Source of the DNA: an uncultured Clostridia bacterium
Lineage (GTDB): Bacteria > Bacillota > Clostridia > Christensenellales > UBA3700
Assembly: GCA_947246685.1 (NCBI GenBank)
Contig: CAMXSN010000002.1
Coordinates: forward strand, 85,485 to 149,484
Length of the DNA stretch: 64,000 nucleotides
Reading direction: 5' to 3'
This document shows positions 45,497-48,495 of the stretch, piece by piece (the first letter of the stretch is position 1; each line of letters begins with the position of its first letter). The position numbers and the translations under genes are program-made. The notes beneath the pieces are model-generated. The model saw only the letters and a list, made by a program, of their open reading frames with translations, was not told where the DNA came from and ran no database searches.

Positions 45497-46042
45497 ATGC
45501 AGAATAATAAGAAGAAAATATTGCAATCCGTTATGATAATAGTCGCGGCGTTGTTTATAGTTTTGGGGATTTTATCCGTCGTCCAGGCGACGGGTTCGGA
45601 CGTCGGATTGACTTATATCAGCAAAATAAGCAATATGATTTTGAGATACGTTGTGGTTATCGTCACTAATGCGATAGGTATCATGCTTATGTCTTATGCG
45701 GCGGGAACGTTTGAGGGGAAATTAAAAAATATATTTTCGATCGCAGTTTGCGCTTACAGCACGCTGATGACCATTCCGCTATTCATGGCGTTCATACTTA
45801 TGTTTCCCGTCGGCGCGGGAGCGACGCTTCCCGCATTTCTCGACGATATGGTGCGAGATATAGTCGTTGCCTTTCAACAATTAGTCGGGGGCGACGGATG
45901 GCAATACGTTATCTATACTTTGGGGACGCTAATGGGCGCGGTATTTCTTGCGTTCCCTATATTTTCTACGTATTGCACGGTCAAAGATATTGACGTTATC
46001 GCGATTGTCAAAGTGAAACTGACATCCAAAAAGTCCGATTAA
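45497..46042 (+). CDS. Multi-pass membrane protein, unknown
   Basis: About four hydrophobic helices; GGAGG RBS. Confidence 0.65.
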   Translation: MQNNKKKILQSVMIIVAALFIVLGILSVVQATGSDVGLTYISKISNMILRYVVVIVTNAIGIMLMSYAAGTFEGKLKNIFSIAVCAYSTLMTIPLFMAFILMFPVGAGATLPAFLDDMVRDIVVAFQQLVGGDGWQYVIYTLGTLMGAVFLAFPIFSTYCTVKDIDVIAIVKVKLTSKKSD

Positions 46043-46154: not shown

Positions 46155-46184
46155 TTGATTTTGCCTATTAAAATAAAATATAAT
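46155..46184 (+). promoter_or_regulatory. Promoter for L15-like-domain membrane protein
   Basis: TTGATT - 18 nt - TATAAT. Confidence 0.6.
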
Positions 46185-46248
46185 ATATCTATGATGGACA
46201 ATGCCGAGACGCTGCGCGACAAAGCATTTGCAAAATAGGGGGTTGAAT

Positions 46249-48441
46249 ATGACAAGTGCTGAAAAGAAAGCTCAGAAAGCAGAATTGGCAGCTCAGAAAA
46301 AAGCCGCAAGAGCCAACAAACAAAGCGGCGGAGAGAAAAAGCAGAACAAAGTAGGATTTTATATTGTTTCGCTTTTGAAATATTTCAATATTATCACGGT
46401 TTTGCCGATTACCTGTCTTTTGTACGTGGTATTTTTTGCGACGGATATAGTCGACGGCATATCTTTTCTCGACAGCAACAAAATACCGGTAATAGTCATG
46501 ATAAGTATCATGTGCGCGGCGCTGATGGCATGGACGGGACTTACTTTTAAGAAGAGAAGAGTATGTTCGCTCGACGCGTTTTTGTTGATAGGTTTGCTGT
46601 TGTGTATCGGAATGATATTGCAATGCATTATTCTCAAACATTTTTCGCCTTTTGATAATATCGCGATAATTACGATAATTATGACGGTGTTTGTGCTTGC
46701 GCTTATGACGCTGAGACTTTGTTTGTTCAAGCCGAGCGAGCAAAACAAAAACGACGACGCAAGATACGATGCTAAATCCAAGATTGCAATGTATCTCAAA
46801 GTTATCTTCTCCAAATATGCGTTCTTTATATCGATGCTCTGCATTATGGGCATTTTGCTTATACTTATAATCACGCGTTCGACGATGTTTGAAAAATTTG
46901 AATTCACAGCTACTCAGCTAGAAAAGGTAGTAACGTTTGCGTTTGCGGCGGTTGCGCTTGTGCTTATGGTGGTCGGTTTGTTCATCAGATTGGTAAGAGG
47001 AAGAGCCAATATCGTCGATTGCATGCCTTATATGTTTATTTTGGTTGCCATAGGCGGTTTGATATATTTCATAGGCGTCAGCAATATCTACATGATTTTA
47101 TACATATCCATAGGAAGCGGTATCGTGGGTGTGATATGGTTGCTTTTGTGCCAATATACGTTGCTTATGTCTGTATACAGAAAACGCGAAGGCGTTGAAG
47201 AAATTCCGCAAGAGCCAGCGCCGGCTGAAGAAGTTGCGGCTCCCGTTGAGGAAGAAACGGTATCGGACGTAGCAGAGGAACAACCGATTGCTGAGGAACA
47301 TACGGCGGAAGAGCCCCAGCCTGTTACTGCTGAGGAAACTGTCGAGGAGACTCCCGTCGAAGAACAGCCCGTTCAACCGGTTGAAGAAGACAAAGCGGAA
47401 GAGCCTGTCCAACAGCAAGTAGAAGAGCCCGTTCAGGAAGAGGTAGTAGAGCAACAGCCCGTAGAGGAAGTTCAGCCTGCTCCCGCAGAAGAAGAAAAGG
47501 TGGAAGAAACTCCCGTTGAAGAGCAGCCTGCGGAAGAGCCCAAACCCAAGAAAAAGCCTGCGCCAAAAGTTGTCGAGGAAGAAGACGAAGACGACGATGA
47601 GGATGAAGACGACGGCGAGGGAGAAGAACTCGGAGCGATTAAGAGTGTCAAGCCAAGATGGGATTATGCTACCAAACTAAAATTGACGAGCGACGATATC
47701 AAAGCATTCTATGCGGATATTAAGAACGAACTGTTGTCTTACGGAATCAAAAACAGAGTTAGTAAGACAAAAGAAAACTTTAATAAGGGCCGCGATACGG
47801 TTGCGAGAATAGCGCTTAACGGCAAGACAATGAAAGTGTATCTTGCGCTTGATCCCAAATCTTTGGATGAGAAATACTATCATCACAAAGATATGAGCGA
47901 CAAGAAAGCCGTAGAAGATATCCCGACAATGATGCCCGTGCGTTCTAAGACGGCGGTCAACAAAGTCAAAGAATTGATAGCTATACTTGCGCAAAAGATA
48001 GAGATGCCCAAGAAACCTAAATATAAGAGCAAGGATTTTGCAGAGGAACTGTCCGCAGAAGAATTGACGCTTGCGCAAAGAAAGGGATACGGTTATCTTA
48101 TCAGACCTAACGTCAAACTCGAAGACGTCGAACAGATGCCGGATGATTTTGCCGAGCAGCTTGCCGACGTGACCACAGAAGAATCTAAGACAATGAGATT
48201 TATCAAGACGACCGTAACGCTTGACGAACTCGCAGAACATTTTGACGACGGCGACACGGTTACGATAGACTCAGTCAGAGAGGCAGGTATAGGCGCGCAG
48301 AACGCCAACTATCTCATCGTTGAGGACGGCCCCGTCCTCGGTAAAAAATTGAAAGTATTCGTCGATGAGATCACTCCTAATGCAATCAAGATGATTGCGT
48401 TGGCAGGCGGCGAAGTGTCGCGCATTTGGAGAAAAATGTAA
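46249..48441 (+). CDS. Multi-pass membrane protein with E/P/V-rich linker, conserved cytoplasmic domain and C-terminal uL15-like domain
   Basis: About eight TMs, EEPVEE linker, KLTSDDIKAFYADIKNELLSYGIKNRVSKTKENFNKGRDTVARIALNGKTMKVYLALDP, C-term VTLDELAEHFDDGDTVTIDSVREAGI...GKKLKVFVDEITPNAIKMIALAGGEV. Confidence 0.78.
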   Translation: MTSAEKKAQKAELAAQKKAARANKQSGGEKKQNKVGFYIVSLLKYFNIITVLPITCLLYVVFFATDIVDGISFLDSNKIPVIVMISIMCAALMAWTGLTFKKRRVCSLDAFLLIGLLLCIGMILQCIILKHFSPFDNIAIITIIMTVFVLALMTLRLCLFKPSEQNKNDDARYDAKSKIAMYLKVIFSKYAFFISMLCIMGILLILIITRSTMFEKFEFTATQLEKVVTFAFAAVALVLMVVGLFIRLVRGRANIVDCMPYMFILVAIGGLIYFIGVSNIYMILYISIGSGIVGVIWLLLCQYTLLMSVYRKREGVEEIPQEPAPAEEVAAPVEEETVSDVAEEQPIAEEHTAEEPQPVTAEETVEETPVEEQPVQPVEEDKAEEPVQQQVEEPVQEEVVEQQPVEEVQPAPAEEEKVEETPVEEQPAEEPKPKKKPAPKVVEEEDEDDDEDEDDGEGEELGAIKSVKPRWDYATKLKLTSDDIKAFYADIKNELLSYGIKNRVSKTKENFNKGRDTVARIALNGKTMKVYLALDPKSLDEKYYHHKDMSDKKAVEDIPTMMPVRSKTAVNKVKELIAILAQKIEMPKKPKYKSKDFAEELSAEELTLAQRKGYGYLIRPNVKLEDVEQMPDDFAEQLADVTTEESKTMRFIKTTVTLDELAEHFDDGDTVTIDSVREAGIGAQNANYLIVEDGPVLGKKLKVFVDEITPNAIKMIALAGGEVSRIWRKM

Positions 48442-48464
48442 TCTTATATCCAAGCAACTAATAT

Positions 48465-48495
48465 GACAGCCCCGATATCGGGGCTGTCGTTTTTA
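48465..48495. terminator. Terminator between convergent genes
   Basis: Perfect palindrome GACAGCCCCGATATCGGGGCTGTC followed by GTTTTTA. Confidence 0.88.

Follow-up and report, generated by a model that had tools for sequence, protein, structure and literature searches.

A 64,000-nucleotide stretch of DNA from an uncultured Clostridia bacterium, hereafter the window, carries a gene for a 730-residue membrane protein whose C-terminal end resembles ribosomal protein L15 (uL15), which raises the question of what a ribosomal-protein fold does in such a place. A first-pass annotation of the sequence had suggested that this end might contact RNA or ribosomes at the membrane. The features of the gene and its product are as follows.

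46155–46184, + strand, promoter-like site TTGATT-18-TATAAT (consensus match only)
46237–46242, + strand, ribosome-binding site AGGGGG, 6 bases 5' of the ATG
46249–48441, + strand, gene of the membrane protein with L15-like C-terminus (730 aa, P0001)
46357–47157, + strand, about eight transmembrane helices, residues 37–303
47185–47643, + strand, acidic low-complexity linker of EEPVEEQP type, residues 313–465
47650–48018, + strand, domain A, residues 468–590 (about 120 residues), predicted alpha-beta(5)-alpha
48019–48207, + strand, connector, residues 591–653, with motif E-[AV]-x5-D-[ED]-x-A
48208–48423, + strand, L15-like module (PF00828), residues 654–725
48463–48490, + strand, intrinsic terminator, 12-pair stem followed by a T run

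Because it has its own promoter-like site and intrinsic terminator, the gene, which starts with the ATG at 46249, looks like a monocistronic transcription unit. A conserved operon around it was rejected on the same grounds and because neighbouring genes vary among relatives, the sole neighbour to stay nearby being a radical-SAM (PflA-like) gene. Directly upstream (45497–46042) is encoded a protein of unknown family with four transmembrane helices; sequence support was obtained neither for a relationship between this protein and the eight-helix part nor for an internal four-helix duplication within the latter. The 730-residue protein begins with a lysine-rich N-terminus on the predicted cytosolic side, and counts of lysine plus arginine in successive loops were 10, 4, 5, 3 and 3 for inner loops as opposed to 0, 1, 2 and 0 for outer loops. 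From these alternating counts, both termini are predicted by the positive-inside rule to be cytosolic and the C-terminal tail is placed in the cytosol, in agreement with the first-pass description of a membrane-tethered L15-type domain behind an acidic linker; an extracytoplasmic tail is unsupported. The L15-like peptide quoted in that annotation is in frame at 48208–48438, whereas the start given for it, 48206, is out of frame.

The resemblance to the C-terminal half of L15, likewise noted in the first-pass annotation, was borne out by profile comparisons. Thus, PF00828 (Ribosomal_L27A), a model of 72 positions with a gathering cut-off of 21.5 bits, matched the whole protein with 30.0 bits and its C-terminal piece with 33.1 bits, the match spanning positions 1–71 and placing the module in the uL15/eL18 superfamily, and the same model matched 18 of 18 divergent homologues tested. 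A module profile (A1) built from 18 divergent modules ranked uL15 chains of solved ribosomes first among PDB sequences (E 1.1e-8), found true rplO genes across the order in most genomes (mostly E 1e-9 to 1e-13) and matched an alignment of true L15s with an hhalign E of 7e-17; chance resemblance was rejected on these results. The profile also matched eL18/L18e, a member of the same Pfam family, but weakly (9e6q_AP, E 1.9e-4) and over the last 36 or so residues only, uL15 being far closer. Against TIGR01071, the model of full-length L15 with a cut-off of 77.95 bits, the 730-residue protein scored 15.7 bits at positions 74–143 only, and the basic glycine-rich N-terminal arm (GRGxGSGxGKTxGKGHKGQ type) that was present in 30 of 30 true L15s is absent from it. 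An ordinary rplO is located outside the window, 1.3 kb ahead of its start (G000:C2:83717–84145), so that the protein was rejected as the displaced or only L15 of its genome. The profile matches, together with this separate rplO, identify the module at the level of sequence as paralogous to the C-terminal domain of L15 rather than as L15 itself.

Homology points to an L15-type fold for the module; an AF2 model from five sequences of the tail (pLDDT 39.7) was too poor for fold comparison. In a tree of 87 columns, too few to place the root or the exact donor, one branch with support of 100/98 parted the 41 modules included from the domains of 37 true L15s, a separation that fits a single recruitment.

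Differences between the module and true L15 were evident when residues and charges were compared between 52 modules and 30 true L15s from the order. Position 707 is lysine in 28 of 30 true L15s as opposed to aspartate or glutamate in 49 of 52 modules, and position 690 is lysine in 30 of 30 true L15s as opposed to 44% of modules (isoleucine in the window protein). Lysine at positions 684 and 704, found in 87% and 67% of true L15s, respectively, gives way to a frequency of lysine or arginine of only 25% and 8% in modules, while K699 is retained in 49 of 52. The last helix, of A-K-E-K-I-E-A type in L15, reads A-V-K-M-I-V-L in modules, with a change in mean hydropathy at positions 713, 715, 717 and 718 from -2.0 to +3.1, and lysine 714 is present in 52 of 52 modules but only 3 of 30 true L15s. 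Judging from sequence conservation in L15, the altered positions are probably exposed at the surface. The place of the basic arm, 5' of the module, is occupied by the motif E-[AV]-x5-D-[ED]-x-A, which reads PDDFA in the 730-residue protein and in which D and A were each found in 38 of 41 sequences. The window protein thus has the marks of the tail family, namely an AvKMIvLtGG helix with its lysine, an acidic residue at 707, the DExA motif upstream and an extreme C-terminal place. Between relatives, dN of the module was 0.011–0.028, lower than that of domain A, and dS was 0.7–1.2, values that show strong purifying selection on the module. In short, while the last 70 residues of uL15 (rplO, TIGR01071; C-terminal domain PF00828) align end to end with the module and have the landmarks G, K and GG in common with it, the module differs in lacking the basic arm, in following a membrane anchor and an acidic linker within one polypeptide, in its charge reversal at 707 and hydrophobic last helix, and in its separate branch of the tree. 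The changed pattern suggests that an RNA-binding fold was converted to a protein-binding one.

In most carriers the module is preceded by domain A, which is also encoded without it at five other places in the genome of the window. Proteins with domain A and no L15-like module were noted at L068–L071 (G000:C7 and C3), with two tandem copies in L069 and a matched frame interrupted by a stop in L068. No match to domain A was found among PDB sequences, and its Pfam matches to YjbR (0.006) and DUF5655 (0.0023) were below threshold. The alpha-beta(5)-alpha order, which was predicted at moderate confidence, is common to YjbR, YdhG (DUF1801), DUF5655 and frataxin-like folds. An AF2 model from seven sequences had a pLDDT of 60, and a Foldseek search with this model gave no significant result (best E 0.16), although the non-significant top entries include YjbR, YdhG/DUF1801 and frataxin. 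Domain A possibly has a fold of the YjbR/YdhG/frataxin type, a lead only, given that all of these matches fall below significance. Matches of domain A or the connector to MalF_P2 and to DUF6530, which was not found in these genomes, were weak, and homology to either was rejected.

The connector and module of the window protein were matched in 35 of 46 genomes of the taxonomic family, representing all six genera, although among the weakest of these matches one is a true rplO (L067). At least 43 genomes, from ten families, carry non-ribosomal modules among the 198 of the order that were scanned, as counted from frames longer than 230 aa or matches above 60 bits, weaker modules possibly lying below the listed matches. 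A search through 300 genomes from the phylum, with a threshold of E 1e-12, returned only the window's own gene and frames of L15 size. The tail family is lineage-restricted, within one part of one bacterial order, and its named near relatives are uncultured Christensenellaceae. The sole IMG/VR contig matched, L133 (IMGVR_UViG_3300032007_003637), encodes a giant surface protein with two copies of domain A and an L15-like module, the same architecture as in the bacterial giant proteins; a viral origin was rejected and this contig is probably a bacterial one misclassified as viral.

Each of the 52 modules read stopped 0–17 residues short of the C-terminus. Carriers, many of which are otherwise unrelated to one another, ranged in length from 242 to 5335 aa and included small proteins with a single transmembrane segment, eight-helix proteins and giant surface proteins, the last of these having one to three transmembrane segments after their MBG (MBG_2), InlB-type (List_Bact_rpt) and Big_2 repeats; one carrier (L123) is a coiled-coil protein without transmembrane segments. 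Up to 13 modules were found per genome, the maximum in G160, where one of 14 matches is its rplO-sized frame. The proteins of this genome (L104–L108), several of which are very large and some of which lie at contig ends, look like a variable surface-protein repertoire. Five G160 paralogues had tails that were 88–95% identical and outer parts that were dissimilar or 25–31% alike, as expected if the constant tails have one constant partner, although the near identity could also stem from recent gene conversion.

Several carriers showed individual peculiarities. In the 3284-aa surface protein of G042 (L066:2738–12589), which has an L15-like module at its tail end, domain A is replaced by two copies of a different domain of about 120 aa that had no significant Pfam match. 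An orthologue in G008 (L056) contains a zinc ribbon (CTECG...CPECG) within its acidic linker. In G003 (L060:972–5618), repeats of InlB/List_Bact type flank the transmembrane segment on both sides; some of these would fall in the cytosol, so that the topology of this protein cannot be read from its repeats alone. A weakly hydrophobic proline/glycine segment precedes the last transmembrane helix in L104, L109, L111, L112 and L133 and may form a hairpin that gives many of the giant proteins three transmembrane passes and a cytosolic end.

These findings are taken, with moderate confidence, to favour a role for the module as a docking or anchoring tail on the cytosolic side that binds a common partner there. 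The transmembrane part, of eight helices in the window protein and one to three in the surface proteins, would place domain A and the L15-like module in the cytosol, where this partner would be bound by lysine 714, acidic residue 707 and the last helix (AvKMIvLtGG) through its hydrophobic face. One constant inner end could thereby hold or organise proteins with very different outer parts.

The suggestion from the first-pass annotation, a membrane-tethered mimic of L15 in contact with ribosomes or RNA, draws on homology over the full L15 C-terminal domain, on the predicted cytosolic side of the module and on the retention of K699, and is further favoured by the basic character (pI about 9–10) of many modules outside the window's subgroup, which might bind nucleic acid. 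It nonetheless appears quite unlikely, since the basic arm is missing, the lysines of L15 at 707, 690, 684 and 704 are lost or reversed, the formerly charged helix face is hydrophobic, the module in the window is acidic (net -5, pI 4.6) and the genome retains a true L15. These changes in charge and hydrophobicity speak against contact with ribosomes or RNA in the manner of L15 and instead favour docking on a protein of the cytosol, and ribosome binding accordingly ranks as less likely than protein docking.

The conserved hydrophobic face and invariant lysine, as well as the many near-identical tails of paralogues within one genome, would also be consistent with self-assembly, in which the hydrophobic helix would dimerise or oligomerise and so cluster carriers in the membrane unaided by a second protein, but this is considered unlikely. 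Least probable is that the module is a passive cap that stabilises the C-terminal fold against proteolysis without a specific partner; a cap would account for the extreme C-terminal place of all modules read, but the conserved residues at positions where L15 is variable or charged, the invariant K714 and the very low dN/dS suggest a specific surface.

An extension of the docking proposal concerns how giant proteins are held at the cell surface. Their MBG_2, Big_2 and List_Bact_rpt/InlB repeats are typical surface repeats, a likeness to LPXTG proteins anchored by sortase, yet in place of the short sorting signal of such proteins they end in one to three transmembrane helices and a cytosolic tail of roughly 200 aa or more, and no sortase gene was found in the genomes that encode them. 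Sortase genes were detected in 72 of the 198 genomes examined across the order and in 0 of the 43 that bear modules, where an overlap of about 16 was expected under independence (hypergeometric 1.5e-10), with a split that follows families. The absence of sortase is thus a lineage pattern between clades that is phylogenetically confounded and does not prove replacement. Of the same 198 genomes, 195 encode penicillin-binding transpeptidases, which indicates that the cells are walled. It is conceivable, although on balance doubtful, that giant variable surface proteins are held without sortase by docking of their constant cytosolic end, consisting of domain A and the domesticated L15 fold, on one inner scaffold, with a tail that is common to polytopic membrane proteins; the carrier in the window, an eight-helix protein rather than a giant surface protein, is not itself a direct case of such outer-domain anchoring.

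No description of the L15-like tail family was found in the open-access literature, and a review on what bacterial ribosomal proteins do outside the ribosome refers to uL15 only as a gene of the spc operon (PMC10931766). For annotation, the family calls for caution; because the modules pass the PF00828 cut-off, that model can name these proteins ribosomal L15 and inflate counts (by 13 non-ribosomal copies in one genome), which also makes plausible the remark in the first-pass annotation that similar clostridial proteins are automatically labelled uL15. TIGR01071, by contrast, cleanly separates true L15 from the L15-like tails. It appears that the fold of a ribosomal protein was put to a non-ribosomal use a single time and later spread over a large family of membrane and surface proteins, and in uncultured, reduced-genome bacteria of the Christensenellaceae type, in which no sortase was found, the resulting tail family offers a handle on surface organisation.
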